64,000 bases of DNA from a virus. The notes beneath the pieces were generated by a model. It did no database searches. It saw only the letters and a list, made by a program, of their open reading frames with translations, and was not told the DNA's origin. Of this stretch, positions 7,064 through 32,564 are shown in pieces (position 1 is the first letter of the stretch; each line of letters starts with the position of its first letter). The stretch lies in IMG/VR virus record IMGVR_UViG_3300017991_000105, positions 1 through 64,000 of that record; one strand, written 5' to 3'. The position numbers were made by a program, and so were the translations under genes.

Positions 7064-7082
7064 GGAAAAAGAGACAAGATTT
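7052..7082. promoter_or_regulatory. Perfect inverted repeat, candidate operator
   Basis: AAATCTTGTC and GACAAGATTT are perfect 10-base inverted arms separated by 11 bases, so their centres are 21 bases (two helical turns) apart. One arm overlaps the -35 box of promoter A and the other touches the stop codon of the methyltransferase gene. This fits an operator for the adjacent XRE protein. It lacks a T tract, so a plain terminator is less likely. Confidence 0.6.
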
Positions 7083-8386
7083 CAGGATTTTCTGGCCACC
7101 AGGACCATCTCCGTGGGGTAGGTCTGGCTGGCCCCTGGCCTGGCCTTGGAGAACCGCCCCGTCTTGGGGTTCCTGGTGGACGGGAGAAGCTTGGAAGGGA
7201 TCTCCCGCTTGAAGACCCTGACCAGCTCCATGGCCGCCAGGTCTTCTATCATCTCACAGAACACAGCCGCGTTCTGGATCTTCACTCCCTTCAGCGTGGT
7301 GTCACCTATGACTATGACCATGTGGCCGCCCCGCTTCAGGATGTGGGACATGGCCAGCCAGGTCTCCCACATGTCCAGGTAGTATTGGGACACAGCCTGG
7401 GACGTGTGAACATGTTTGTCCTTCAGCCTCCTGACTATCAGCCGCGCCAGGGAACTGTTGGGCTTCATCGTGGACGTGACGTTGGGCCGACAGTTGGACC
7501 CAATGTAGTGGGCCTTGGCCTGGGAGTCCGTCCCGCTCAGATCCAGCCAGGCTATGGATAGCTGGTGGATGGACAGATAGTCATAGGACGTACAGTAGGG
7601 AGGAGATGTCACGATGGTGTCCACCCGCCCCTGGGGCCAGCCCGTCAACCAGGGACTCTTGGGGATGGTCTGGTAGGCCCCAAGGTGACCCGCCCGGAGC
7701 CCCGAAGGGAGCGCGTCCCAGTAGGCCGCCATCCCCGCCTCCATGTAGTCCAGGTGTTTCAGGAACAGCTCTTCCGCGTTCCCTATCCGCTTCTCCTTGT
7801 CCTTCACTGGCTTGGTGGAACTGTTGGACCACCTGGACGCTGGTTTCAGGATGTGGCTGAAACAGACCTTCAAGAACATCTGGATCTCTGGGTCATCCAC
7901 AGTCATGATGTTCCCAAGAAGATGTCCCAGCCTGTAGATGTTCTCCTGGGGGAACCATCGAAGGATCAGCTCTTCATGGCGTTCTGGAATAATGGGTGAC
8001 GGGGACGGACGCCCCACCCAACCTCTGACCTTCTTCAACCGGTGGTTCAGCTTCTCTGGATCTATTGGCCGCGCCTTGACTTCAGTGATCAGCGTGGCCA
8101 AGGGGTTGATGTCCGCCCCCGCCGAAAAATAGCCCTTCAGGAGCCCACAGACCAAGGTGGTCCCGCTCCCACAGAAGGGGTCAAATATCAGAGCCGCCCT
8201 GTTCCCAGGGCCGTAGTCTTCCAGGGCTTTGTCTACCAACTGGGGGATGAACTTGGCTGGGTATCTGTGGAACCCGTGGGTGTAGGCTGACCGCTCCTTC
8301 CGCGTGGCTCCCGCGAAGGTCCAGTCAGGGTCCACCACAGCCCCGTCCACCAGGTTGGCGTAGTAGGCCGTCTTCCTGATAGCCAT
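7082..8386 (-). CDS. Site-specific DNA methyltransferase (N4-cytosine or N6-adenine type), 434 aa
   Basis: The SAM-binding motif I is DPFCGSGTTLV (about residue 70), preceded by a motif X-like HGFHRYPAKFIPQLV, and the catalytic motif IV is TSPPYCTSYDY (about residue 265). SPPY in place of NPPF/Y suits N4-cytosine or N6-adenine methylation rather than C5. The middle (about 120-240) probably holds part of the target recognition region. It is the last gene of the promoter B operon that also carries the DpdA-like protein, so both may shape DNA modification. The ATG at 8386 is preferred over the GTG one codon earlier. No restriction enzyme is adjacent, consistent with a solitary phage methylase. 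Confidence 0.88.
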   Translation of the reverse strand: MAIRKTAYYANLVDGAVVDPDWTFAGATRKERSAYTHGFHRYPAKFIPQLVDKALEDYGPGNRAALIFDPFCGSGTTLVCGLLKGYFSAGADINPLATLITEVKARPIDPEKLNHRLKKVRGWVGRPSPSPIIPERHEELILRWFPQENIYRLGHLLGNIMTVDDPEIQMFLKVCFSHILKPASRWSNSSTKPVKDKEKRIGNAEELFLKHLDYMEAGMAAYWDALPSGLRAGHLGAYQTIPKSPWLTGWPQGRVDTIVTSPPYCTSYDYLSIHQLSIAWLDLSGTDSQAKAHYIGSNCRPNVTSTMKPNSSLARLIVRRLKDKHVHTSQAVSQYYLDMWETWLAMSHILKRGGHMVIVIGDTTLKGVKIQNAAVFCEMIEDLAAMELVRVFKREIPSKLLPSTRNPKTGRFSKARPGASQTYPTEMVLVARKS

Positions 8387-8703
8387 CACTGACCGCCTTC
8401 CGTGGGGGCCGGGGATGGCGTGGTGATGTCCGCCACCTGTTCATCCAGTAGCTCTTCCGCCGTGTATTGGTCTTTGATGGCAATTTCCGCCCCGCCGTCC
8501 TGGACCGCGTTGATCAGGAGCGCCGTGGATAGCTGGACCTGGTCCCAGGGCTCCAGCTCCCAGGGAAGAAGGATCTGTGTGTGAAGAGCCTTCCGCCCAG
8601 CGTATTTCATCCCGCCGTAGAACCCGGCCGCAAATACCGCCAACACCGCCAGCGTGATGGCCACGCCTAACACCGGCCCCATGGGCCGCCTGTCCTGTGT
8701 CAT
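8386..8703 (-). CDS. Single-pass membrane protein, 105 aa
   Basis: After a short basic N-terminus (MTQDRRPMG) comes one membrane helix (VLGVAITLAVLAVFAAGFYG), then a soluble acidic domain ending TTPSPAPTEGGQ. The start chosen is the ATG at 8703, six bases after AAGGAGG; the open frame extends upstream without a better start. The pattern is that of a type II membrane protein, facing the periplasm or cell exterior. Function unknown; a spanin or membrane regulator are possibilities with no specific support. Confidence 0.7.
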   Translation of the reverse strand: MTQDRRPMGPVLGVAITLAVLAVFAAGFYGGMKYAGRKALHTQILLPWELEPWDQVQLSTALLINAVQDGGAEIAIKDQYTAEELLDEQVADITTPSPAPTEGGQ

Positions 8704-8918: not shown

Positions 8919-9716
8919 CTACGCCGCCGCCTGAAGCCGCTGGGCTTCTTCAAAGGTCAGCGTTTTTCTGAACTGGTTGGTCTGGTCAATGTCCCCTAGA
9001 CCGTTGAACCTGTAGACGTGGTCCGTGTCCAGGTCCACGAAATAACAGGCTTCCCTGGTCCAGCCTCCTGGGTTCATCATCCGCTGGCCCTGGGGGAACA
9101 CGAAATCCCAGACTTCATGTGTGTGGCCACAGATGTAGCCAAAGTAGCCTTCCGTGAACTTCTCCATGGCCGTCCTGGCGTAGTGTTCCCAGGTCAGCCG
9201 CTCCCCACAGGGGAACACCTGGTCCACCATCCAGTTGGCCAACTGAACCGCCCGCTGGTCCAACATGGGGAAGAGCGTTTCCAAAGCTACCGCCGTGGAC
9301 AGGAACGCCTGGGCCGCCTTCAGGCCCTTGGAGGTGTTTACGTCAAAGACGCCGCCAGCTCCCCAGATCGGGTCCCTTTCGTGGCCGTGTTCCCTCCACC
9401 ATCTCCGCCCCTGGCTGTCAATGAACTCCCCTGGCTCCGTGATGTCCCACATGAACAGCCTGTCCAGGTGGGTGATCCCGAAGTCATGATTTCCAGGGAT
9501 GAAGTCCACCTGGGACGTGGCCAACAGGTGGAAGGTTTCTTCATATTCCTGGAGCGTCTTGACGTAGGTGTGGGGGAACAGGTCAAACACGTCCCCCAGG
9601 AGTCCCAGACGGTGGCCTTCAGCGTGGACCCACTGACAGAAGTCAAGGGCCAGGGGGTTCTGATCACTGGCCCGCTTGAACCCCTGGAAGTGTAGGTCCG
9701 CCGCCTGGACGTTCAT
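8919..9716 (-). CDS. Calcineurin-like metallophosphoesterase, 265 aa
   Basis: The family's metal-binding blocks appear in order: DLHFQG (a variant of the usual DxH), GDVFDLF, GNHDFG, HGHE and GHTHE. The spacing is close to UDP-2,3-diacylglucosamine hydrolase-like and other bacterial enzymes of this superfamily. The substrate cannot be told; nucleotide or nucleic-acid phosphoesters are likely in a phage. The start codon lies in the upstream gene's last bases (GGGAGTCAGTC ahead of ATG). It sits two genes from the DpdA-like enzyme in the same operon. Confidence 0.85.
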   Translation of the reverse strand: MNVQAADLHFQGFKRASDQNPLALDFCQWVHAEGHRLGLLGDVFDLFPHTYVKTLQEYEETFHLLATSQVDFIPGNHDFGITHLDRLFMWDITEPGEFIDSQGRRWWREHGHERDPIWGAGGVFDVNTSKGLKAAQAFLSTAVALETLFPMLDQRAVQLANWMVDQVFPCGERLTWEHYARTAMEKFTEGYFGYICGHTHEVWDFVFPQGQRMMNPGGWTREACYFVDLDTDHVYRFNGLGDIDQTNQFRKTLTFEEAQRLQAAA

Positions 9717-10462
9717 GACTGACTCCCGTTGAAGATGACAGGGTTGGACCCCAGTTGGATCTCCGGATAGGCTCCCGTGTCACCCCGCTGGTTCCAGCGC
9801 CACAGCTTGACGTGTAGCTGTTCTCCCGCCTTGGTGATCAGGCCCACATAGCCCGTCCCCCGGTGGTTCGTGGCCCTGTATTTCACGTAGACGTTCCAGG
9901 AGCCTGAATGGGGCATTGGGACCCAGATCAGACCGCGCATAGTCCCGTCAGTTCCCGCTTCCTTGGCCGCCACCCTGGTGATATACAGGTAGGGTTTCTT
10001 CTCCCCTGGGTGGTCCCCGTTGTCCGTCCAGTTGGTGGCCCCGTTGGGTCCAACACAGTAGGGCTGATCAGGACTCTTCTGGGTGTTCCTGGGCTCCAGG
10101 TGTTTGTAGTCCACCAGCATGACCTGACCCGTGGAAGGGTTGACAAACTTGACATGAACGAAGGACAGACCCGCGCCTTTATCCCGTCCGTTGATGTAGC
10201 CCGCCACGTAGTTCTCCGTGGCCAGGATGAAGCCTGGGTGTCCCTCCGTCAGGGCCGCGCCGTCATAGACAGGTCCTTCAGGGGGGTAGAATTCGATAGG
10301 ATCAGGGGGGTGGTCCTTGGTCCGGTGGTCCTTGGACCCACAGACTTCACAGGGTTCATATTTCTCCTGTTCCTTCTCCAGCCACTTCTTCAGCCAAGGG
10401 ATCAGGTAGTCACCCACAGCCTTCAGAAGCTTTCCCATGATGTTCCTGTTGAATAGACCCAT
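9713..10462 (-). CDS. Unknown protein with zinc-knuckle-like N-terminus, 249 aa
   Basis: The N-terminus has an amphipathic helix (YLIPWLKKWLEKEQEKYEP) followed by CEVCGSKDHRTKDH, a C-x2-C-x4-H-x4-H pattern like a zinc knuckle. The remainder is beta-rich with many aromatics and Gly (WVPMPHSGSWNVYVKY, then GTGYVGLITKAG), more like a carbohydrate- or virion-type beta domain than an enzyme. The ATG at 10462 follows GGAGGGATGATC and is favoured over one two codons earlier. It directly follows the DpdA-like gene. I do not recognise it. Confidence 0.7.
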   Translation of the reverse strand: MGLFNRNIMGKLLKAVGDYLIPWLKKWLEKEQEKYEPCEVCGSKDHRTKDHPPDPIEFYPPEGPVYDGAALTEGHPGFILATENYVAGYINGRDKGAGLSFVHVKFVNPSTGQVMLVDYKHLEPRNTQKSPDQPYCVGPNGATNWTDNGDHPGEKKPYLYITRVAAKEAGTDGTMRGLIWVPMPHSGSWNVYVKYRATNHRGTGYVGLITKAGEQLHVKLWRWNQRGDTGAYPEIQLGSNPVIFNGSQS

Positions 10463-10464
10463 GA

Positions 10465-11640
10465 TCATCCCTCCAGTTCCTCCCAGGTGGTCATGGTGAC
10501 CTCCTGGGTCTGTGGCTTCCGCTCTTCCAGCGTAGGGACCAGAAGCCGCTTCCGTAGTTTGGGCTTTAGAGCGCCATTCATCTTCATGATCACCCGGGGG
10601 GTGATCTCTTCTATCTTCTGTTCCTGTAGTAACCAGGCTACCACAGAACAGACATCTTCATCATCCCAGTCCACGGGCTTCTGGCCGTTCTGAAGAGCCT
10701 GGATGATCTCCACGTAGGCCCGCCGCTGTTCAGGGTCCTTGACCGCGTACCAGCGGAACTTGGACGCCCATTCATAGACTTCATCATCCGTCAGGGGGCC
10801 TGTGGGAAGCCTGAACTCCCAGTAGGGTGTGGTGACCCGCTGTTCATCCAACCAGTGTTGGAGTTTTGTGTAGGCCACCAGGGCCGATCTGGACAGCGCC
10901 GCCTTCTCCCTGTTGGCTATCTTGGCCCAGTCCAGCCCTTCCTCTTCCAGCTCTTCCTTCATCAGGACCCAGTCATCTTGACGGTGTCTGGACAAGGTCT
11001 TGACCTTCTCTTCCCCATCGTGCCAGTAGTACAGACAGCCCCAGCGTTCCGTGGTCTTCCAGGTGGTGGAGTCCGTGGTGTAGTAGTAGCCCTTCTTCAG
11101 GGACCAGTCATCCGTGATCCCAAAGCCGTGGACCTTCGTCAGGAAGGCCCGCGCCACGGTCATCAGGTTCTCCACGTCCGCCCGGTCCAGGCCCTTGGTC
11201 AGCCCCACGTAGGGGAACCGCTGACACATCATTTCCCAGACCGCCATCCCCCGCTGGGGGTGGAACACAGGGATGACCGGGATCTTCAGGTGGGTGTAGG
11301 TGTCCCACCATTCCATGACCTGGTCCAGGCCCACCCATTCCTCCACGTCCAGCTCCACAGCCGTGTAGATGTAGTCCTGGTATTTCTCCAGCCAGGACAG
11401 ATATTCATCATGGTAGGCTTTGAAGTCATCCGTGTCTAACTCCCGCCCCTTCTTCTGGAACGTGTAGGCCCCGGAGTCCACCATGAAGTCCACGTCTGGG
11501 TTGGCTTCCTTACGCTGGACTATGATGTCCGGTCTTTCCCTCATCTTCCAGTAGCTGACCAGGACCGCGTCCACCCTGTACTCCGTCACCAGGTCAAAGT
11601 AGAACTTTTCATCACACCCGCCAAAGAAGATCCGCGTCAT
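10465..11640 (-). CDS. dpdA: DpdA-like DNA 7-deazaguanine transglycosylase, 391 aa
   Basis: The protein resembles the tRNA-guanine transglycosylase superfamily in its phage DpdA branch, which exchanges guanine in DNA for a 7-deazaguanine. Visible blocks are FMVDSGAYTFQKKG (about residues 52-65), TAVELDVEEWVGLDQV (about 92-107), IPVIPVFHPQRG, YVGLTKGL, KVHGFGITDD and TTDSTTW (about 195). The classical TGT zinc site (CxCxxC plus His) is not visible. The C-terminal 190 residues are helical and less conserved. QueC and QueD, which make the base precursor, are encoded 6 kb away at 17150-18399. It could act on RNA, but phage context and the DpdA-like blocks favour DNA. Confidence 0.75.
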   Translation of the reverse strand: MTRIFFGGCDEKFYFDLVTEYRVDAVLVSYWKMRERPDIIVQRKEANPDVDFMVDSGAYTFQKKGRELDTDDFKAYHDEYLSWLEKYQDYIYTAVELDVEEWVGLDQVMEWWDTYTHLKIPVIPVFHPQRGMAVWEMMCQRFPYVGLTKGLDRADVENLMTVARAFLTKVHGFGITDDWSLKKGYYYTTDSTTWKTTERWGCLYYWHDGEEKVKTLSRHRQDDWVLMKEELEEEGLDWAKIANREKAALSRSALVAYTKLQHWLDEQRVTTPYWEFRLPTGPLTDDEVYEWASKFRWYAVKDPEQRRAYVEIIQALQNGQKPVDWDDEDVCSVVAWLLQEQKIEEITPRVIMKMNGALKPKLRKRLLVPTLEERKPQTQEVTMTTWEELEG

Positions 11641-11649
11641 GTTCCGTCC

Positions 11650-11841
11650 TCAGTTGGCCAAGGGATGGCTGATGGTTTCAGGTTGGGTGTCTTCGTCCTC
11701 TTCTTCCTCCAGGTCCACGCCCGCCATCATGGCCAGGATCTTCAGGAGTCCCACACCAGCCGTGATACAGAACGCCATCACCAGGCCAGTGATGAAGATG
11801 GCACAAATACACAGACACAGCTCCAAGATCATTCTGTCCAT
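11650..11841 (-). CDS. Small membrane protein, 63 aa
   Basis: Residues 5-38 are strongly hydrophobic (LELCLCICAIFITGLVMAFC and onward) and could form one long or two short membrane helices. The tail is very acidic (DLEEEEDEDTQPE). The ATG follows GGAGGACTGA. It sits between a Cys-rich small protein and the DpdA-like gene. Function unknown. Confidence 0.65.
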   Translation of the reverse strand: MDRMILELCLCICAIFITGLVMAFCITAGVGLLKILAMMAGVDLEEEEDEDTQPETISHPLAN

Positions 11842-12219
11842 TCAGTCCTCCGTGTCTTCGTCAATCAGTCCGCCCATCTTCACCAGCCGCTTGGAACAGC
11901 GTTCCACACAGACCATGAAATGGGTAGGTTTCCAGTCCACGCCCGCCTTCTTCAGCTTTCCGTCAGGGATGTAGAAGGCGTTCACCCACACCCGCTCCAG
12001 GGAGTTGGTGGGGACTCCGCACATCTCACAGCATAGGATGGAACCGTCATTCTTGGAGTCCCAGCGTGTAGTAGTCTTCTGGGTCTTCTTCGCCCAGGGG
12101 AACGTCCGTCCCCGCTGGTCCCTGGCCCGCCTGACGTATTTCATCCGCCTGGGCCTGGGTTTGGGGGTCTTCGCTTTCGTCTCCGTTTTCACCTTGTCCG
12201 CCCACAACAGAGGGGTCAC
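11842..12219 (-). CDS. Basic protein with a zinc-binding C-terminus, 125 aa
   Basis: The first half is highly basic (KTPKPRPRRMKYVRRARDQR). The second half has CCEMCG and, after about 34 residues, CVERCSKRL, which may bind one zinc ion. The start is a GTG in a GTGA overlap with the upstream stop; an internal ATG (MKYVRR) is an alternative. The charge suggests nucleic-acid binding. It belongs to the MoxR-vWA operon but no functional link is proven. Confidence 0.65.
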   Translation of the reverse strand: MTPLLWADKVKTETKAKTPKPRPRRMKYVRRARDQRGRTFPWAKKTQKTTTRWDSKNDGSILCCEMCGVPTNSLERVWVNAFYIPDGKLKKAGVDWKPTHFMVCVERCSKRLVKMGGLIDEDTED

Positions 12220-13184
12220 TTCTTCGCCTTTCTGACTTCTGTTCCTGTCTTGTGTAGGACATCACGGAATTCATTGAATTCTTGGGGGGTCAGCCCGCGT
12301 GTCAGTTGGACCAGCTCTTCCTCCTTCTGTTTGGTCTGTCCTTCTACTACCAAAGCTATGGACGCCTCCATGACCTTCTTCACCTTGGGGGACATCTTGA
12401 TCCCGTTCATGGTGGCCGTCCGTAGATCGTCAGGGGTGGCTCCAGCCTTGGGGGCTGGGTCCGCCTTCTTGGGCTCCTTCTTGGGCTTTGGTGGATCAGG
12501 CTTGGGCTCTTCTACCTTGGGCCGCTCCACTGGAGCCCCGGCCTTCCGCCGCCTCCGCCTGGTTGGGAAAGCGTGGTCCTGGGTCACCCCGTCCACCACT
12601 TTCCAGTAGTGGGCCGCCAGGGCTTCAGGACTGTCAAAGACCTCCGCGTCCGCGTCCTTCAGGGACTCCAGGAAGGAGTCAAAGTCCACGTTCACGTCCA
12701 GGTTGAACAGGGACATGGCCTGGAACTCCTTGGCTTCAGGGACCCCGTCCAAGATCATCCGCCGCCTGTTGGGGTTGTAGAAGTCCAAGACCAGACCGTT
12801 GGTGTCCACGATCTTCAGGAGCGCGTCCCCTGTGTCTTCGTCCTTTCCTAGCCAGTTCTTCCCAGCGTTGGTCCGCCGCCAGTTCTTGTCAATCTTCCAT
12901 CCCTGGGCCATGGCTCCCATGGACATGGTTTCCCCCATGGCCATCAGAATGTCCCGTTCACAGAAGATCTTGTCCACAGTGAACAGCCTGTCATCCATGG
13001 TTGGGTTCCGCCCTGGGTGAAAGACGTAGCCCTTCCCCTTCTTCTGGAAGGCCGCCCAGGAGTCCGACAGGTCCCGGCCGACCACAGCCCGCCTGACCTC
13101 CTGAACGTCAGACAGGTAGGCCGTGGCCGCACAGAAGACGCCCGCGCCCTGGTTGGTTCTGATCTTGGCTAGTGTAAACAACAT
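12216..13184 (-). CDS. Unknown protein next to the MoxR-vWA pair, 322 aa
   Basis: The N-terminal 220 residues form a mixed domain with no motif I recognise (starts MLFTLAKIRTNQGAGVF; includes NPNRRRMILDGVPEAKEF). Then comes a basic Lys/Pro-rich linker (RRRRRKAGAPVERPKVEEPK onward) and a short helical C-terminal domain (LTRGLTPQEFNEFRDVLH). It starts two bases after the vWA gene stop and is followed by a 4-base overlap. The position suggests it could be a partner or substrate of the MoxR-vWA machine, which is inference. Confidence 0.7.
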   Translation of the reverse strand: MLFTLAKIRTNQGAGVFCAATAYLSDVQEVRRAVVGRDLSDSWAAFQKKGKGYVFHPGRNPTMDDRLFTVDKIFCERDILMAMGETMSMGAMAQGWKIDKNWRRTNAGKNWLGKDEDTGDALLKIVDTNGLVLDFYNPNRRRMILDGVPEAKEFQAMSLFNLDVNVDFDSFLESLKDADAEVFDSPEALAAHYWKVVDGVTQDHAFPTRRRRRKAGAPVERPKVEEPKPDPPKPKKEPKKADPAPKAGATPDDLRTATMNGIKMSPKVKKVMEASIALVVEGQTKQKEEELVQLTRGLTPQEFNEFRDVLHKTGTEVRKAKK

Positions 13185-13185
13185 G

Positions 13186-14784
13186 TCAGTCCCGTCCCTT
13201 CACCGTGGTCACAATGTCCGCCAGGTCAGACGTGGCGGAATTCATGATGGAGTAGCTGGTGGCCGCGTTGAACAGCGTGTCATCCACCCAGTCTTCCTCC
13301 CCTGTGTGCCAGGTGGCGTCAGACATCTGAATGACGTGTAGTTCTATGTCCTTGAAGTCAGGAAGCTGTTCAGGCCGTAGCCCCTGTTCCGCGTCCGTCA
13401 ACAGAAGGATCTTGGCCCGCCCCAGGTCAGAGTCTTCTTTTTCCCTGGCCTTGGTGATGTCCTTGACCGCCCGCTTCAGCGCCGTGTCTATGGCCGTCCC
13501 GCCTCCGTTGAAATCTGACAGCCCAAGGAGCCGCCCAATGTGAGAGAAGCCCGCTTCCGTCTTGGCCTTGTAAAGCTTCCCAGGGCTCCCCGCGAAAGTC
13601 CGAAGGAAGGCCACGCCGTCCTTCTCCTGGATGTCCGCCAGGAAGGCCAGGGAGAACGCCGTAGCAAAGCCGCCCTTTGACAGGGTCCAGCCGCCCCGCT
13701 GTTGGCGTGTCTTCACAGAGATGGAGTCCATCATGGACCCTGACACGTCCACCAGAAGATAGAGTAGGGGCCTTCCCACGTTCTCCTGGTGTTCGTTCAC
13801 CATCAGGGTCCCGTCAGCTATCTTCTGGAAGAAGACATCATCATCCATAGCCTGTTCCCTGGGGAGCGCGTCCACAGCCTGGGAGATGTCCGTGATGGTG
13901 GTCACATCTTCATCATCCGCTGGCGTGGGGGTCCTATTCCGCTGGGTGTCTTCGTGACTGTTCAGAACTCCCTTGACGAAGGTCACTATATCCAGGATGG
14001 ACAGGATCTTGGCGTCCAGCCTGGCCGCCACCCTTTCCACAGCTCCCAGGAAGGACGAACCCGTGAACGTAGCCGGGGCCTTCCCTTTTCCAGCCGGTCC
14101 TCCGCCGCCAAAGCCTCCAGGCTGGCCCTGATCTTCGTCATCACCGCCCTTCCCGACCCCAAACAGCTCCTTCAGCTCTTCTTCCACCTTGGGGTCCATG
14201 GGAGCGTTGACGCCTCCTGGAATGATGGCGTCCAGGATCTTGGTGGGCTGGACCTTCGCCGCGCCTCCAAGGAAGCCCGCCTGGGCCGCGTTGGAAAACA
14301 GTTTGTTCAGGTAGTCAGCCCCGTAGCCCACCAAGGAGATCAGGCCCTTTGACGGGGGGTCCGGACAGTCCTCATGAACCAGCTTGTCCGGATAGGTGGT
14401 GTCATCCAGCCGCGCCACAGCTATGTGGGCTCCGAAAAGACAGTGATGTTGAAGGTTACAGCTTTCACAGGTCTTGATCCGCCTGATCTTGGACAGGGTC
14501 AACATGACCCCTACAAGCTGTTCAGCTTCGTCCAGGATGGAGTCAGAACTGACCTTGTCCCAGTAGGGGGTTTCCTCCAAGGATGAAATCAGCTCCCGCC
14601 GCTGACAGTATTCCGTGAACTGGGGTCCCATGAAGACGCCCAGTTCCTGGCTGGACTTGATCCGTTCTCCACGCCTGTAGTTCAACAGGTCAATGAACAA
14701 AGATCCTTCCACGCCGTACTGAACGCCTAACTCTTCCGCTTTTTCCTGTTCCTGTGGGGTGGTCTGTCCGTCCACTATTTCCAT
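13186..14784 (-). CDS. vWA-domain protein (ViaA/CobT-like partner of MoxR), 532 aa
   Basis: The C-terminal part (about residues 345-530) is a von Willebrand A domain: YLLVDVSGSMMDS gives the DxSxS metal-site motif, GGGTAIDTAL supplies the conserved Thr, and ILLLTDAEQG the second Asp. The N-terminal 330 residues include CESCNLQHHCLFGAH (possible metal site), a Gly/Pro-rich linker (GGFGGGGPAGKGKAP), and helical segments. vWA proteins paired with MoxR ATPases, as in RavA-ViaA or CobS-CobT, act as adaptors for protein remodelling. The start ATG overlaps the MoxR gene by 95 bases with AAAGGGTGACCC ahead. Its target here is unknown. Confidence 0.85.
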   Translation of the reverse strand: MEIVDGQTTPQEQEKAEELGVQYGVEGSLFIDLLNYRRGERIKSSQELGVFMGPQFTEYCQRRELISSLEETPYWDKVSSDSILDEAEQLVGVMLTLSKIRRIKTCESCNLQHHCLFGAHIAVARLDDTTYPDKLVHEDCPDPPSKGLISLVGYGADYLNKLFSNAAQAGFLGGAAKVQPTKILDAIIPGGVNAPMDPKVEEELKELFGVGKGGDDEDQGQPGGFGGGGPAGKGKAPATFTGSSFLGAVERVAARLDAKILSILDIVTFVKGVLNSHEDTQRNRTPTPADDEDVTTITDISQAVDALPREQAMDDDVFFQKIADGTLMVNEHQENVGRPLLYLLVDVSGSMMDSISVKTRQQRGGWTLSKGGFATAFSLAFLADIQEKDGVAFLRTFAGSPGKLYKAKTEAGFSHIGRLLGLSDFNGGGTAIDTALKRAVKDITKAREKEDSDLGRAKILLLTDAEQGLRPEQLPDFKDIELHVIQMSDATWHTGEEDWVDDTLFNAATSYSIMNSATSDLADIVTTVKGRD

Positions 14785-15910
14785 GGGTCACCCTTTCACG
14801 GAGCGTGTCCGTGGCTTTTTCTCTCAGTTTCTGGATGGTGTCCACGATGGCCGCCACCCGTTCATCCAGTTCAGGTCCCAAAGACTGGGCCGCCAGTCCA
14901 GAGTAGTAGGCTTCCAGCCTGACCAGGTTCTGGCTGACTTCGTTCAGCCACTTGGGGTCAGCTTTGTGGGTAGCGAAGGAGCGCCTAAACTTCCCCAGAA
15001 GGCTTTCCGCGCCTCTGACATTGTTGTAGACCTTGTCTTCCGCGCCCATCTTCTTGGCCACGGACTCCAGAAGCTTCCAGAAGTCCGCCGTACTACCTCC
15101 CATTGGAACGATGGCGTGACAGAGCGCCGACAGATCCACGCCTGTGACCACGTTGTCACCACGGAGCCAGGCGTGGGCCTTCATCAGGTCCAGACACCAG
15201 ACTCTCCGCCTGGGGGAGATCACCTGGTAGGCGTCCTGACACCTGTCCAACAGCTCCGCCACGTGGTTCATGGTGAACCTGGACAGGTGAACCTTTTTCA
15301 CTGACGCCCTGGCCGCCTGGAACTGTCTGAAGGACATCCGCTTCATGGGCCTGTGTTCCATAGACTGGGCCATCATCTTGACCTGGTCCGTCCTGGACAT
15401 CTTCCCATCCACGGCTATCCTGATCAGGAACCGATCCATGACCGCGTCCGTGGCCAGCTCTGGCTTGTAGTAGTTGGTAGTGGCCAACACAGAGATCAGG
15501 GGACACCTGATGACCCGCCCGGTGTTTCGGCTGAAGGTCCGTTCATTCAGGACCTCCAGGATGGACCGAAGGAGGCCCGGGTGTGCGTCAAACAGTTCAT
15601 CCAGAAACCCAAAGTCACAGTCCACCAGGGTCCCCGTGGTGTTATGTTCCACAGTTGCCTGGGTCCTGTATTTCTGAAGATCCATGGGTCCAAACACATA
15701 GTCAGGACTCATGTCACGCGCCAGTTGAAGCTTGAACACTGACGCGCCCTTGATCCCCCCAAGGACCAGGGAAGCCAACATGGACTTCCCGATCCCCGGG
15801 GGGCCTTTCAGGAGGATGTGTTGTCCGGCCAACATCGCCAGCCCCATCTGGTTGACGATCACCTGTCTGTTGACCATCCGTTCAGATACATCCGCCAAAA
15901 ACCGCTTCAT
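14690..15910 (-). CDS. MoxR-family AAA+ ATPase, 406 aa
   Basis: Walker A is GPPGIGKS (about residue 36), Walker B is GFLDELFDA (about 100), sensor 1 is SVLATTNYY (about 140), and the arginine-rich VISPRRRVWCLDLM fits the helical lid of MoxR proteins. The family forms hexamers that remodel proteins together with vWA partners. The vWA gene directly follows and overlaps by 95 bases, so the C-terminal 31 residues (starting around GKSGRVRRSVRR) are encoded in DNA shared with the next gene and are probably not part of the fold. The gene starts after GGAGTAGGTC immediately downstream of the acidic protein. Confidence 0.88.
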   Translation of the reverse strand: MKRFLADVSERMVNRQVIVNQMGLAMLAGQHILLKGPPGIGKSMLASLVLGGIKGASVFKLQLARDMSPDYVFGPMDLQKYRTQATVEHNTTGTLVDCDFGFLDELFDAHPGLLRSILEVLNERTFSRNTGRVIRCPLISVLATTNYYKPELATDAVMDRFLIRIAVDGKMSRTDQVKMMAQSMEHRPMKRMSFRQFQAARASVKKVHLSRFTMNHVAELLDRCQDAYQVISPRRRVWCLDLMKAHAWLRGDNVVTGVDLSALCHAIVPMGGSTADFWKLLESVAKKMGAEDKVYNNVRGAESLLGKFRRSFATHKADPKWLNEVSQNLVRLEAYYSGLAAQSLGPELDERVAAIVDTIQKLREKATDTLRERVTHGNSGRTDHPTGTGKSGRVRRSVRRGRIFVH

Positions 15911-15913
15911 GAC

Positions 15914-17032
15914 CTACTCCACCGGGACCACTTCGTCCACAGTTCCGTCCGCCGTCACCACGAAATACTGGGTCCCGTCAGGGCCTTCTGTCTGTCCAAC
16001 ATAGGCCGGATCCGGTTTCCCGTCCTTCCCTTCTTCCTTCCAGACAAAGGGACCTTCACTCTGGGGTTCGTCCAAGGGGAGACCGTTGGCAAACCCACAG
16101 CCGTTATGAAGGTATCCCTCCCCCCAGTCATGGCGGAGTCCGCTGTCATCGTAGAACGCCGCTTCAAACCTGATGACCAGGTCTTTGTCAGACAGCGCCT
16201 TCATGTCTTCCTGGATCACGTCAGGAAGGGAGGGGACCCACCATTCCTTGGCCTCTTCCAGGGAGTCCTTGAAATCATCCGTCACCATGGCCTTGGCCAT
16301 GTCCAGGAAGGGGGACCAATCGAAGGCTAGACGGATGTCGTCTTCTTCATCGTCCTCTTCCTCTTCATCGTCCTCTTCTTCATCGTCCTCTTCTTCATCT
16401 TCTTCTTCATCCCCGGACCCCTCTTCTTCCGGGTCTTCCTCTTCTTCGTCATCCTCTTCCTGATCTCCGTCTTCAGGGTCTTCTTCGCCAGAGGTTTGGT
16501 CCCCCTCCGTTTCTTCCTCTGAACCTTCCTCCGCTTCGCCGTCCGCCCCTTCAGCGCCTCCATCATCCTGTCCAGGATCGTCTTCTTCATCTTCTTCTTC
16601 ATCCTCCGTGTCTGGCTTCGTCACCGTGGAACCGTCCGCCAGGATCTCCCCAAGCCTGGAAGAGATCTCTGACAACAGGAACGTCATGTCCGCGTCCTCC
16701 AGCTCCACACCAACCAGCTCCCCGGCCTCCTTGGCGTCCGCCTCTTCCGGGTCAAAGTCAAGGTCCGCTTCATAGGCCCCCACCAGGACGCCCAGAAGCT
16801 TCTTCATCTTGGGGACCTTGGTCTTGGGCTTGAACTGGAACCCCAGTCCGGCCGCCAGGTCAACCAGCTCCGCCTTCTTCATCTTGGTCAGCTCTGACTG
16901 AAGAGGAAGAACCCGTAGTTTGTCCCCTATAGCCTTCTCCGGGGACACGTGGTCCCCTGTCAGGACATCTCTGGCCTTCGTCAACATCCCAATGGCGTCA
17001 TCAATCAGACCTACCGCTTCTTCTGGCTTCAT
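15914..17032 (-). CDS. Strongly acidic protein, 372 aa
   Basis: The N-terminal 140 residues are a mixed helical domain (VGLIDDAIGMLTKARDVL; LTKMKKAELVDLAAGLG). Residues about 140-233 are an almost pure Asp/Glu low-complexity tract interrupted by Gly. The C-terminal 135 residues form a compact domain with aromatic residues (DSLEEAKEWWVPSLPDV, GLRHDWGEGYLHNGCGFANG). It is the first gene after promoter B, with an excellent AAGGAGG site. DNA-mimic or ion-binding roles are conceivable for the acidic tract, without further support. It may be the partner or client of the MoxR-vWA pair. Confidence 0.8.
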   Translation of the reverse strand: MKPEEAVGLIDDAIGMLTKARDVLTGDHVSPEKAIGDKLRVLPLQSELTKMKKAELVDLAAGLGFQFKPKTKVPKMKKLLGVLVGAYEADLDFDPEEADAKEAGELVGVELEDADMTFLLSEISSRLGEILADGSTVTKPDTEDEEEDEEDDPGQDDGGAEGADGEAEEGSEEETEGDQTSGEEDPEDGDQEEDDEEEEDPEEEGSGDEEEDEEEDDEEEDDEEEEDDEEDDIRLAFDWSPFLDMAKAMVTDDFKDSLEEAKEWWVPSLPDVIQEDMKALSDKDLVIRFEAAFYDDSGLRHDWGEGYLHNGCGFANGLPLDEPQSEGPFVWKEEGKDGKPDPAYVGQTEGPDGTQYFVVTADGTVDEVVPVE

Positions 17033-17081
17033 CTTTCCTCCTTGTGTGGGAAGCCCACTTTTTCGGAACTCTTGTTAACAG

Positions 17082-17110
17082 ACGATAACACAGGTATACA
17101 CTCCTGTCAA
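17082..17110 (-). promoter_or_regulatory. Promoter B, sigma-70 type
   Basis: -35 TTGACA (17105-17110), 17-base spacer, -10 TATCGT (17082-17087), minus strand. The module GTTTTCCC precedes the -35 as at the other promoters. The predicted start near 17075 lies in the palindrome TGTTAACA (17073-17080), a possible regulator site. The first gene begins at 17032. Confidence 0.8.
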
Positions 17111-17147
17111 GGGAAAACTGTCTTCAGGGTTTTCCCCGCTGGGAAAA
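17111..17147 (-). terminator. Overlapping alternative hairpins upstream of promoter B
   Basis: Three related arms follow the queD stop: GGGAAAAC (17111-17118), GTTTTCCC (17129-17136) and GGGAAAA (17141-17147). The middle arm can pair with either neighbour, giving an 8-base stem with a 10-base loop or a 7-base stem with a 4-base loop (17130-17147). They could end the queC-queD transcript; the T tract is short, so termination strength is uncertain. Confidence 0.45.
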
Positions 17148-17149
17148 AT

Positions 17150-17650
17150 TCAGTCTGGGGGGTCTTCAGGATGGAACCACTGACGGAACCCGTGGACCAT
17201 CTGTTCCGTTTCATTCCTGAACGCCTGGTTCTCTGGGGCCTCCCCGCCGAAGGTGGCCCCTGTGGTGGGGGACTCCCAGACCGTGACTTCATGTCCAAGA
17301 ACATCCTGAAGCTTCACCGCCCTGTAGGCGTACCAGAAATAGCGGGCCAGGTTCTCCACTGTGGGAGGCCCTGGGATCAGGAACAGGTCATAGTCCTCCC
17401 CGTCCAGGTGGGTCTCCAGCGTGTCAACCAGGGGGTCAGCGTAGTCCAAGACCAGCCTGTGATCCATGGCCCACCTGTTGAACGTGTCCAGGTCACGAAG
17501 GTCTCCGAAGTCCACCACAAAGTCAGAGTCCGTTGGTCCGTGGATCGTCACGTCCACCCTGTAGGTGTGACCGTGGATCATCTGACAGCCTGGGACATCC
17601 TTCAGTCTGTGGGCCGCCGCTATGGGTTTCAGGTGTTTGAAGATCTTCAT
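17150..17650 (-). CDS. queD: QueD, 6-carboxytetrahydropterin synthase, 166 aa
   Basis: QueD converts dihydroneopterin triphosphate to 6-carboxytetrahydropterin, the second step to the 7-deazaguanine preQ0. The zinc-binding histidines appear as AAAHRL and MIHGHTYRV, then VVDFGDLRDL, MDHRLVLD, GPPTVENLARYFW and TVWESP, all in the family order. The length is longer than the usual 120-150 residues owing to a C-terminal tail. The ATG at 17650 follows GGGAGAACCAGAC and overlaps the QueC stop by 4 bases. The other pathway enzymes (FolE, QueE) are not in the window and may come from the host or elsewhere in the phage. Confidence 0.9.
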   Translation of the reverse strand: MKIFKHLKPIAAAHRLKDVPGCQMIHGHTYRVDVTIHGPTDSDFVVDFGDLRDLDTFNRWAMDHRLVLDYADPLVDTLETHLDGEDYDLFLIPGPPTVENLARYFWYAYRAVKLQDVLGHEVTVWESPTTGATFGGEAPENQAFRNETEQMVHGFRQWFHPEDPPD

Positions 17651-18399
17651 GTCTGGTTCTCCCATATGTCTACGCCGCGTTCCTCATTTCGGACCTTGAA
17701 CAGCTCCCACCCGTGGCTCCTGATCTGGCATGACTCACAGGTCCCACAGCCGCGCCCCCATTCATGCTTGGTCATGTCCAGCTTTCCGCTGATGTGGTAA
17801 GACATACAGGACACCGTCTTCAACACCGTCTTCAGAACCCCAATGTAGTGGGCCGCGTCAAACAGGTCCGCCTTGGAACAGCCCCAGACGTTGGACGTGA
17901 CACTGAATTCCACGCCTATCCCCTGACTGATGGCGTCCCTGGCCGCCTCCATGAAGTCCTCTGACTGATCAGGATAGACAGGGGCTTCCGTGTCTGGTGT
18001 GTCATCCTCCAGGTGAACCGCCATGACTATGTCTTCCGCCTGGTATCTGGCCGCGAAGGTGGACGCGATAGCCAGATAGACCAGGTTCCTTCCCAACATA
18101 GTCCCGTCAGACATCCCATATTCTTCCGTCAGCCGCCTGGTATTGGACCCGCGCCAAAGATCGGAGATCCTGACCGTTTCCAGCTTCATGGTCCGTTCAT
18201 CCGTGGACCACATAGCCTTGGAGATCTTCTTGGCCTCCTTGACCTGGCCCATGGCTATCCGCCGGAACTCCCCCATGGCCTGGCCGTGTTCCACGTATAC
18301 GCTGACCACGGAATGTCCGCTGATGGCCAGTTCAAACAGCGCCACAGCGCTGTCAAGTCCCCCCGATAGTAGAAGGATGGTGTCCACTGGTCTCTTCAT
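17647..18399 (-). CDS. queC: QueC, 7-cyano-7-deazaguanine synthase, 250 aa
   Basis: QueC makes preQ0 from 7-carboxy-7-deazaguanine with ATP and ammonia. The PP-loop motif LLSGGLDSAVAL is near the N-terminus, TMLGRNLVYLAIA and DTPDTEAPVYPDQ follow, and the zinc site is a distal Cys (about residue 203, after TV) plus GCGTCESCQIR near residue 220. No glutamine amidotransferase domain is fused, so this is plain QueC rather than the Gat-QueC form. With QueD next to it and the DpdA-like enzyme in the following operon, the likely product is incorporated into phage DNA. Confidence 0.92.
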   Translation of the reverse strand: MKRPVDTILLLSGGLDSAVALFELAISGHSVVSVYVEHGQAMGEFRRIAMGQVKEAKKISKAMWSTDERTMKLETVRISDLWRGSNTRRLTEEYGMSDGTMLGRNLVYLAIASTFAARYQAEDIVMAVHLEDDTPDTEAPVYPDQSEDFMEAARDAISQGIGVEFSVTSNVWGCSKADLFDAAHYIGVLKTVLKTVSCMSYHISGKLDMTKHEWGRGCGTCESCQIRSHGWELFKVRNEERGVDIWENQT

Positions 18400-27524: not shown

Positions 27525-28852
27525 GACTGGGCCTCCTTCTTCTTCCTGAACTCGTTTTCAATCTTGACCGCCACTTTGTCCGTCCTCCGCTCTTCCTCTG
27601 GCTTGATCTCCCCTGGCGGGACTTCATCGAAACATGGGGGGTCAAAGGTGAACCTGACGTGGAAGCCGCCTATCCCTGAATTCCTGGACTTCTCCACGTT
27701 GAAGGTCCTGACCGGGTCCTTCCTGACGCCCGCCAGTTCAAAGACATAGTCAGAGTGATGGGTGATAGCGTCAGCGTAGTAGACCGTGGCCAGGCCGCCG
27801 CCTGTCTTCCCACCCTTCTCTTCCCCGCCTTCCCTCCGCTCCTGGAAGGTCTGAAGGATGAACACGTTCTTGGCCTTGGCCACCCGCTTCATCATCCTGG
27901 CCACCTTCACGCCCGTCTCTGACAGGCCGACCTTGGACGCCCCAATCAGGAGATCCGCGCCGTCAATGATGACCACGTCCGGTCTGTATTCCTGGATCTT
28001 GGACACCACAGACTGGACCCCCACAGCTTCGTCCAGGTCTTCGTCATCCACAATGATGAAGTCAGGAAGGTTCTGGCTCTTCATCCGTCTGATGGCCGCC
28101 TTCAGCTTCCGTTCCTCTTCCGCCTTCAGTTGGCCCCGCGTGTAGCGTGTATAGGACAGACCAAAATTCATACAGTCAGCCCGCTGGGCTATCTCTTCCG
28201 CTCCCATCTCCTTGGAGATGTAGACCACCCGCGCCCCCTGTCTCCACCAATGGAGTCCGAAGACCAGAGTCATCCAGGTCTTCCCCACTGATGTCCTGGC
28301 TATGATGGTGGCCAGTTGTTTGGGTTTGAACTTGGGGGCCATCTTCGCCAGCGTAGGCCAAGGGGAAGTCAAACCGTCCGTCTTCAGCTCCGCCTGGAGC
28401 CTTTCGTAGCTGGACCACTTGTCCTCCTTCTGGGCTGACCAGTCCAAGTCCGCCCTGGTGTCCCAGACATTTTGAAGACTGGTGACCGCGTCAAATATCT
28501 TCTGTGTGGCCTTCGTGGCCGCGTCTTCATCCAGGGACTCCAGGTCCACCCTGACCTCCCCCACCAGGTCCCTGACTTTGTTGAACTTCTCCCGTTCAAA
28601 CAGTTGGTCCGCCCAGTAGGACAGGGGGTCCGTCTCCGTGGGGAACTTGGGGGCCAAGGACGGGAAGCTATTCAGGAACAGCCGCTTGGAAGGGATCGTT
28701 CCGTGGTCCTTCCAGAAATTCCTGATCCACGTCCATTCCGTGATCCTGGACTTGAACAGGTCCAGCCCTTGACACCCCATCAGAAAGGATGTCCGTTCAG
28801 CCTGGGAACTATCGTAGAAACTCGCCAGCGCTTCCACTTCCATGTCAGCCAT
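27521..28852 (-). CDS. DnaB-like replicative helicase, 443 aa
   Basis: The RecA-like core begins about residue 180: QLATIIARTSVGKTWMTL is Walker A (Ala in place of the first Gly, frequent in DnaB), VVYISKEMGAEEIAQR follows the DnaB pattern, and RPDVVIIDGADLLIG is Walker B. FILQTFQERR corresponds to the segment where DnaB has its glutamine motif, and VEKSRNSG is near the arginine finger. The N-terminal 170 residues are a helical domain not clearly like DnaB-N. It sits between uracil-DNA glycosylase and primase genes. Confidence 0.88.
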   Translation of the reverse strand: MADMEVEALASFYDSSQAERTSFLMGCQGLDLFKSRITEWTWIRNFWKDHGTIPSKRLFLNSFPSLAPKFPTETDPLSYWADQLFEREKFNKVRDLVGEVRVDLESLDEDAATKATQKIFDAVTSLQNVWDTRADLDWSAQKEDKWSSYERLQAELKTDGLTSPWPTLAKMAPKFKPKQLATIIARTSVGKTWMTLVFGLHWWRQGARVVYISKEMGAEEIAQRADCMNFGLSYTRYTRGQLKAEEERKLKAAIRRMKSQNLPDFIIVDDEDLDEAVGVQSVVSKIQEYRPDVVIIDGADLLIGASKVGLSETGVKVARMMKRVAKAKNVFILQTFQERREGGEEKGGKTGGGLATVYYADAITHHSDYVFELAGVRKDPVRTFNVEKSRNSGIGGFHVRFTFDPPCFDEVPPGEIKPEEERRTDKVAVKIENEFRKKKEAQS

Positions 28853-29528
28853 TAGCTTCCTCCTTCTTCGTCTGGATCAGTAGGGGAAGGTCATAGACAT
28901 CCGGTTCAGGCCGTGGATGGTTGGCCGCCGTACAGTCCAACAGGTCCTTGGAAATCTGGTTCCACAGATGAACATCATCCTCCAGTGACTTGGTGTTCCG
29001 TAGGTAGGCCGCTGGGTGGGTGACTTCGTAGAGTAACACCCCACGGAGGACCATGGGGTAGGTGAAGCCGCGCCGTCCGACTATGGCCGCTTCAGAGATC
29101 CGCCCAAGCATGATCAGGATGTTGGGCCTGATGTGGCGTAGGGTCTCCACCAACCAGGGCCGACACTCCAGAACTTCTCCCGCTTTGGGGGCTCTGTTTC
29201 TTCTGTTCTGACGGGGGTTACACTTGACCACGTTGGTGATGAAGACCCGCCGGTTCTGGGGAACCTTCTTCCCCGAATACTTCAGACCCAGATGGGCCAG
29301 GATGTCATCCAAGACCTTCCCAGCCGGTCCCACGAATGGGACGCCGCTTTCATCTTCCTGGGCTCCTGGGGCTTCGCCAATGATGACAGCTCTGGCGTCC
29401 TTGAACCCCTTCCCGAAAACCACATTATTCCGGGCCTCTGATAGCCCGCATCTGGCACATGAACACGTCTTCTCCCTTAACTGTGGCCAAGAGATCCGCC
29501 TGTTTGATGGCGGTTTCAGGATCTTCAT
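28845..29528 (-). CDS. Family 4-type uracil-DNA glycosylase (Fe-S), 227 aa
   Basis: The catalytic block GEAPGAQEDESGVPFVGPAG (about residues 51-70) and the substrate motif THPAAYLRN (about 169) are intact. Four cysteines, CARC near residue 24 and the pair in KCNPRQNRR and ECRPW, would hold the 4Fe-4S cluster. It removes uracil from DNA. The N-terminal Cys pair requires the ATG at 29528 (GGAG site), which makes a 104-base overlap with the upstream gene. A degenerate relative lies at 31962-32564. Confidence 0.88.
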   Translation of the reverse strand: MKILKPPSNRRISWPQLREKTCSCARCGLSEARNNVVFGKGFKDARAVIIGEAPGAQEDESGVPFVGPAGKVLDDILAHLGLKYSGKKVPQNRRVFITNVVKCNPRQNRRNRAPKAGEVLECRPWLVETLRHIRPNILIMLGRISEAAIVGRRGFTYPMVLRGVLLYEVTHPAAYLRNTKSLEDDVHLWNQISKDLLDCTAANHPRPEPDVYDLPLLIQTKKEEANG

Positions 29529-31628: not shown

Positions 31629-32004
31629 TTTTGACCTCCGTCTTCAGCCGCTTCACTTCCAAAGCGGCCCGCTGTTTGAACCGTGTACTTTCAATGGATT
31701 TCCCGGACTTCTTCAGCCGTCCGTCAGAGCCTGTTCTGTTCAGTCCTTCCTGTTCCAGTAACATCTTGAAGATCCGGATTTCCTGGGCCGAATACCAGCG
31801 CCGTCCGTCCCGTAGCTTGAAGATGGGTTCAGGAAGAACTCCCTTCTTGTCCCAAGCCCTGATAGTCCTGACAGTCCGGCCCAGGGCCTGGGCCACCACA
31901 AACCTGGAGTAGACCGTGAACTGGGTCCCCCCAAGGGTCACCCACTTCTCCTTCCGTTTGTCTATCTTGCTTTCTGTCTGGGCCGTGTCTGTAGCTCCCG
32001 CCAT
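31594..32004 (-). CDS. MerR-like HTH protein, 136 aa
   Basis: VAQALGRTVRTIRAWDKKGV then LPEPIFKLRDGRRWYSAQEI is a MerR-type helix-turn-helix and wing. A basic coiled C-terminus follows (RFKQRAALEVKRLKTEVKNG). No metal- or drug-sensing domain is present. It overlaps its neighbours by 43 and 35 bases. It likely regulates phage transcription. Confidence 0.7.
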   Translation of the reverse strand: MAGATDTAQTESKIDKRKEKWVTLGGTQFTVYSRFVVAQALGRTVRTIRAWDKKGVLPEPIFKLRDGRRWYSAQEIRIFKMLLEQEGLNRTGSDGRLKKSGKSIESTRFKQRAALEVKRLKTEVKNGKITALASPI

Positions 32005-32564
32005 AACGCTTCAACCTTTCGTAGGTGATCGGAGAACAGTTCACCCGCCGCTACTTCATCTTCAAAACTGAGGATGAAGGATGGACTCCTGATCACGATG
32101 AAGGGGGTCAGGTATCCCTTCACAGCGAATTCATCAGGAAGGATGAACTGTCCCGCCAGGGTTCTGATGTCAGGGGGACTGACGCCGTGTCCCAGTAGAT
32201 ATTTAGCCGCTTCCTTCCCCACTACCACCACCAGGTTGGGACAGAAGGCTTCCAAGATGTCCTGAAAGACTTCTTCACAGGCCCGTAGGTTGGCCACCCG
32301 TGGGGTGTGTGGGAACGAACACAGCGGAAATGAAAAAGCCACCACATCTTGGGGGAACCTCCACCCAATGTCCTTCCATATGGGTTCAAAGAAGGACAGG
32401 TCTTCCATGAAGGCGTCAGGGCTGAACACCATGAACGTCTTGGGGTTCTTGGATCTCCATTCCGCCCGCTGTTGGGTGTTTTCCGGACACAGGCTACAAA
32501 CAGGACCACCTGTGTTTAGAAGATCACTTCTTTCCTTTTGAAGGATCTTTGACGTAAAGAGCAT
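31962..32564 (-). CDS. Degenerate uracil-DNA-glycosylase-like protein, 200 aa
   Basis: The four Fe-S cysteines of family 4 enzymes can be placed (VCSLCPENT; FPLCSFPHTPRVANLRACEE), and CPNLVVVVGKEAAKYLLG matches the family's strand-helix pattern. The catalytic GExPG block is replaced by FSPDAFMEDLSFFEP and the terminal His motif by RSPSFILS. It probably keeps the fold and cluster but not uracil excision. The true enzyme is at 28845-29528. Binding to uracil-containing or modified DNA is possible but unproven. Confidence 0.6.
   Translation of the reverse strand: MLFTSKILQKERSDLLNTGGPVCSLCPENTQQRAEWRSKNPKTFMVFSPDAFMEDLSFFEPIWKDIGWRFPQDVVAFSFPLCSFPHTPRVANLRACEEVFQDILEAFCPNLVVVVGKEAAKYLLGHGVSPPDIRTLAGQFILPDEFAVKGYLTPFIVIRSPSFILSFEDEVAAGELFSDHLRKVEALWRELQTRPRQKAR

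Follow-up and report, generated by a model that had tools for sequence, protein, structure and literature searches.

A putative reduced 7-deazaguanine DNA-modification pathway with a divergent QueC in a phage clade that avoids GCA/TGC

Gene content and organization of the locus

The window analysed here is a 64,000-nucleotide stretch of the virus record IMGVR_UViG_3300017991_000105 (G000; 67,900 bases, 57% G+C). Open reading frames for dpdA-like, queD and queC-like genes are found on its minus strand, with the same coordinates as in the original prediction (Table 1), and queD and queC overlap by 19 nt. A consensus scan of the region found nine promoter-like sites against 3.5 expected. One of them is situated just after queD, which fits the original prediction that queD and queC close one operon and that dpdA is carried by the next, but falls short of proof. 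The description of the set as split likewise holds in part: intervening genes do separate its members, but relatives run the same block in one direction and in the same order.

Table 1. Features of the region carrying dpdA, queD and queC
Feature	Position	Strand	Size	Evidence and context
queC-like gene	17647..18399	-	250 aa	Pfam QueC E=3.8e-26; PDB QueC 2pg3 6.3e-9; motif table against ~55 phage QueCs
queD, 6-carboxytetrahydropterin synthase-like	17150..17665	-	171 aa	Pfam PTPS E=5.7e-22; alignment
Promoter-like TTGACA-17-TATCGT, extended -10 TG	17082..17110	-		After queD, before the dpdA-carrying unit; consensus scan only, 10/12 matches
Acidic protein	15914..17032	-		First gene downstream of the 17082-17110 promoter-like site; partial relative between queE and dpdA in G002
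MoxR-type AAA+ ATPase	14690..15910	-		Between queD and dpdA; Pfam bpMoxR 7.1e-35
vWA protein	13186..14784	-		Between queD and dpdA; Pfam VWA_2 0.001
dpdA, phage DNA guanine transglycosylase-like	10465..11640	-	391 aa	PHROG 887, alignments, AF2, Foldseek, tree
Protein without assigned function	9713..10468	-		Directly after dpdA; order kept in G001, G003 and G002
Calcineurin-like phosphoesterase-like gene	8919..9716	-		Weak Pfam Metallophos_2 match, 0.0047
SPPY-class DNA methyltransferase	7082..8389	-		Last gene before the next promoter; Pfam N6_N4_Mtase 3.9e-12; PHROG 18146 4.5e-45

To tell true gene absence from fragmentation, relatives of the window phage were located via capsid and polymerase. 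The sister genome G001 (99,864 bases) has 91% identity to the window in the capsid, ~74% in the polymerase and 79% in DpdA. The window bridges its end and its start, all but ~0.5 kb being accounted for, so that it is nearly complete. A third member of the clade, G003 (23 kb), carries the same QueC and QueD. G002 and G004 are more distant relatives from IMG/VR that share the gene order around dpdA with the window. The portal and other genes are related between the window and a group formed by G002, G004 and Bacteroides phage BS162P1. The order of dpdA and the two genes that follow it (9713 and 8919) is kept in G001 and G002, and the methyltransferase has 69% identity to its counterpart in G001 and is missing from G002 and G004. 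A tRNA-Glu gene is present in both G000 and G001. The MoxR ATPase and vWA pair (13186..15910) is found in G004 too and is missing from G002. The window phage also encodes two members of the uracil-DNA-glycosylase superfamily, at 28845-29528 (Pfam UDG 1.1e-28) and 31962-32564 (7.5e-6).

The DpdA-like protein groups with phage DpdAs

The DpdA-like protein matches PHROG 887 (queuine tRNA-ribosyltransferase) over residues 2-312 with E=1.7e-35, at sequence level a match far above chance, and gives no match to Pfam TGT. We aligned it with the DpdAs of 9g, CAjan, Dp-1, actinophages and others. All invariant residues of this alignment (L27, D55, S56, A58, L97, D98, H127, H171, T176, D190 and S191) are kept, most of them also hold in a second alignment of 31 further relatives, and W194 is likewise among the conserved positions. 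AlphaFold2 places a TIM barrel at residues 1 to ~267, with pLDDT of 87-97 by block over residues 1-260 and poor confidence in the C-terminal tail. The top PDB match of the model in Foldseek is the archaeosine TGT 1iq8 (E=7.5e-5), and the BFVD matches with a named function are mostly phage transglycosylases, phage DpdAs and the nt-1 DpdA2 included. In the tree, the window DpdA joins that of G001 and then the copies of G002 and G004 with SH-aLRT of 98-100. Because the predicted structure and the tree both place it inside the phage DpdA family, 10465-11640 falls within the TGT superfamily, as the original prediction had proposed for a gene accompanied by QueC and QueD. By the features tested, we therefore count it as a member of the phage DpdA family. 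Insertion of 7-deazaguanines into DNA has been demonstrated for the 9g and CAjan enzymes (PMC6884629), and the catalytic residues of the CAjan DpdA are identical to those of the window protein.

Bacterial and archaeal tRNA-guanine transglycosylases (TGT, ArcTGT) have the TIM-barrel fold in common with the window DpdA, but the latter is without their zinc motif and below Pfam TGT detection. The missing zinc site was thus correctly read from the sequence. As a sign of new specificity, however, it carries little, since the CxCxxC...H motif is found in none of 80 related DpdAs and in neither 9g nor CAjan. The long C-terminal extension, the other feature put forward as novel, has counterparts of similar or greater length in the wider DpdA group, where related proteins reach 617 aa. 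The DpdA of BS162P1, which alignment and tree assign to the same wider subgroup, is without this tail, unlike the window DpdA. In seven other loci (L017, L018, L020, L036, L076, L077 and L094), DpdAs of ~500-617 aa have a C-terminal region rich in cysteines; the window tail differs from it.

FolE and QueE are absent from the window clade

The original prediction noted that the FolE and QueE steps are missing from the window, and extending the search to the whole 67.9 kb record and to the near-complete G001 found neither. Pfam searches for FolE and radical SAM gave no match in G000, G001 or G003 and did match in G002, G004 and the control genomes. A missing piece of the genome can be rejected as the cause, with G001 (QueC, QueD and DpdA, no FolE, no QueE) lacking both genes as well. 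A hidden non-orthologous QueE or FolE was also rejected: there is no Pfam match, and the CxxxCxxC motif occurs in no ORF of at least 120 aa in G000 or G001. The window phage accordingly does not carry all four preQ0 genes next to DpdA, FolE and the radical SAM enzyme being missing. Since G002 and G004 retain both in the full QueC-FolE-QueD-QueE...DpdA order, which would be ancestral, loss of FolE and QueE in the window clade is most likely.

The arrangement resembles that of CAjan and Rosebush in the preQ0 group (Hutinet et al. 2019), whose DpdA is likewise accompanied by QueC and QueD; these phages, however, encode FolE and QueE, and the window clade has neither. Among the published groups compared, we did not find an altered QueC together with QueD and DpdA but without FolE and QueE.

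QueC departs from the canonical enzyme at conserved positions

QueD keeps its zinc and catalytic motifs in the alignment (AHRL, CxxxHGH with the catalytic Cys, DHR and the Glu). QueC keeps the P-loop SGGLDS, GRN, the zinc motif CGTCESC, R99, Y131 and YPD, and so has SGGxDS, RN, YPD and the zinc cysteines in common with the canonical QueC (cluster 1, PMC13329287). It differs from the canonical enzyme in the change of Y35 to H, VP to ML (MF also in the clade), C134 to Q and Y189 to M (CY to CM). In place of the canonical YxQxHxxE, VPxRN, YPDC and Y189, the window QueC thus reads HGQ..., MLGRN, YPDQ and CM. The same study lists the canonical motifs and reports that the E. coli enzyme loses activity on alanine substitution of Y35, R99, Y131 or Y189 (PMC13329287). 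Among ~55 QueCs from DpdA loci, a histidine at position 35 is found only in the window clade and G002, with other departures from Y35 in L039, L076, L045 and L016. Y189 is changed only in the window clade, G002 (N) and L039 (H), and the QueC of CAjan is canonical, in contrast to that of the window clade. Because G002, with its full pathway, is also altered at both positions, the Y35 and Y189 changes probably predate the gene loss.

Both genes are genuine, as originally predicted. That they supply preQ0 is less secure, since the departures at several conserved catalytic positions make the canonical QueC step doubtful. Between G000 and G001, dN/dS (NG86) is 0.23 for DpdA, 0.33 for QueD and 0.37 for QueC, similar to the other genes tested, and the three frames are intact in both genomes. 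By this measure the three genes are under purifying selection.

A reduced pathway and its alternatives

We consider it probable that the locus encodes a reduced 7-deazaguanine DNA-modification pathway, made up of a phage DpdA, QueD and a divergent QueC, with the FolE and QueE steps taken from the host. An ancestral QueC-FolE-QueD-QueE...DpdA block would have lost FolE and QueE, leaving the host to provide the product of FolE and to carry out the QueE step. QueD would make CPH4 and the divergent QueC would act on CDG, both raising flux, and DpdA would exchange guanine in the phage DNA for a 7-deazaguanine base. This base may be preQ0 or, given the altered QueC, another product such as ADG, and it would protect the phage DNA from restriction. 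We thus infer a pathway that works in altered form and need not yield preQ0. FolE is an enzyme of the folate pathway, and QueE is encoded by many hosts as part of queuosine synthesis (see also PMC6884629). Host supply of the two steps is plausible, the presence of QueE in this host being our assumption; genome contigs searched for a host, using the capsid and the methyltransferase as queries, gave no match. Import of preQ0 by YhhQ was considered and rejected, the transporter having been looked for and none found. A DpdB-like partner of the ParB family was also sought, with no PF02195 match in G000, G001, G002 or G004. In G003, dpdA (L123 496-1593) has a 75-nt deletion that removes the D98 region and an in-frame TAA; therefore either dpdA may be dispensable or the G003 contig is faulty. 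The loss of Y35 and Y189 in QueC, the interrupted dpdA of G003 and the lack of YhhQ and of a ParB-like DpdB all count against the reduced pathway.

The QueC changes could instead mean that the enzyme has been repurposed, coupling CDG to another nucleophile such as a protein or small molecule (cf. Cap9/QatC) or stopping at the amide ADG, so that the base, if any, would not be preQ0. The positions Y35/H39, VP, C134 and Y189 are indeed changed across the clade and partly in G002, QueCs of the CAjan and actinophage type retain Y35 and Y189, and Y35A and Y189A abolish activity in E. coli (PMC13329287). However, SGGxDS, RN, YPD and the zinc cysteines are still present, natural replacements may be compensated, and in G002 a QueC of this kind accompanies a full FolE-QueD-QueE set. 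We regard repurposing as possible but rather doubtful. Less probable again, and on balance unlikely, is that the set is a decaying remnant, defunct after the loss of FolE and QueE: two genes are gone and dpdA is interrupted in G003, but between G000 and G001 the three that remain have dN/dS values of 0.2-0.4, similar to those of the other genes tested, and intact frames. A role in tRNA, in which QueC and QueD would raise the queuosine level of the host and the substrate of the DpdA-like protein would be tRNA rather than DNA, follows a published suggestion for phages that have preQ0 genes without DpdA. It is very improbable for a protein that groups with phage DpdAs, is without the zinc site of the tRNA TGTs and has no Pfam TGT match.

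Under the reduced pathway, a phage lineage would have pared down a DNA-hypermodification pathway and changed its QueC along the way; it should then rely on the queuosine enzymes of its host and might use a different base. The genomes of its sister and cousins provide a natural experiment.

GCA and TGC are almost lost from the clade

The near-total loss of GCA/TGC is more surprising, and is the strongest unexplained fact near the locus. With both strands counted, the record contains GCA 128 times, and TGC equally often, where 1736 would be expected (ratio 0.07). Both complements are avoided in every codon frame, at 0.04-0.17 of synonymous shuffles in the two codon-junction frames. The avoidance is a double-strand-level effect. 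Avoidance of GCA in mRNA, as RNA-cutting toxins might impose, was rejected, since coding strands are depleted of TGC as well as GCA, whatever the frame. Protein sequence itself is bent by the loss. Dipeptides whose codons cannot avoid GCA or TGC (Met or Trp before His or Gln, Met before Pro) reach 0.23 of expected in G000 and 0.17 in G001; the reversed pairs stand at ~0.9, and the values for G002 and G004 are 0.92 and 1.12. GCA ratios are 0.06-0.12 in G000, G001, G003, L099 and L100, 0.85 in G002, 0.95 in G004 and 0.80 or above in ~90 other DpdA loci. For any triplet, the lowest ratio in 86 other loci of at least 8 kb is 0.36.

The original prediction suggested a link between the enzyme set and this avoidance. 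Comparison across relatives and ~90 DpdA loci shows the avoidance to be confined to the window clade. That DpdA itself is the cause, its target triplet having been purged from the phage genome, would agree with the loss of GCA and of FolE and QueE on the same branch, and with the prediction that dpdA is transcribed together with the methyltransferase specific to the clade. Yet G002 and G004 keep FolE and QueE without avoiding GCA, so that, with the other DpdA loci free of it, DpdA and a full pathway are not sufficient. The avoidance also persists in G003 despite its interrupted dpdA. CAjan modifies GA and GGC (PMC10002423); GGC is its most depleted triplet, but only down to 0.67, with 1071 GGC/GCC sites retained. 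We give causation by DpdA very little weight. The link to the DpdA set is thus unsupported; as a single branch, one event, carries both the avoidance and the gene losses, it is unproven rather than excluded. The SPPY methyltransferase, found only in members of the GCA-avoiding clade, is an equal candidate for the cause.

As a long shot, the altered QueC might make a base new to DNA and DpdA might act at GCA/TGC, perhaps jointly with the methyltransferase encoded near it, the phage having purged its own genome so that these enzymes mark or poison host DNA. If true, self and non-self would be told apart by triplet content and the phage DNA spared.

The GCA-avoiding clade is also low in CGA/TCG (0.30), TAA/TTA (0.34) and GAG/CTC (0.43). 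In a DpdA-bearing virus represented by L088 and L087, GAG/CTC (0.36) and GAC/GTC (0.44) are both low.
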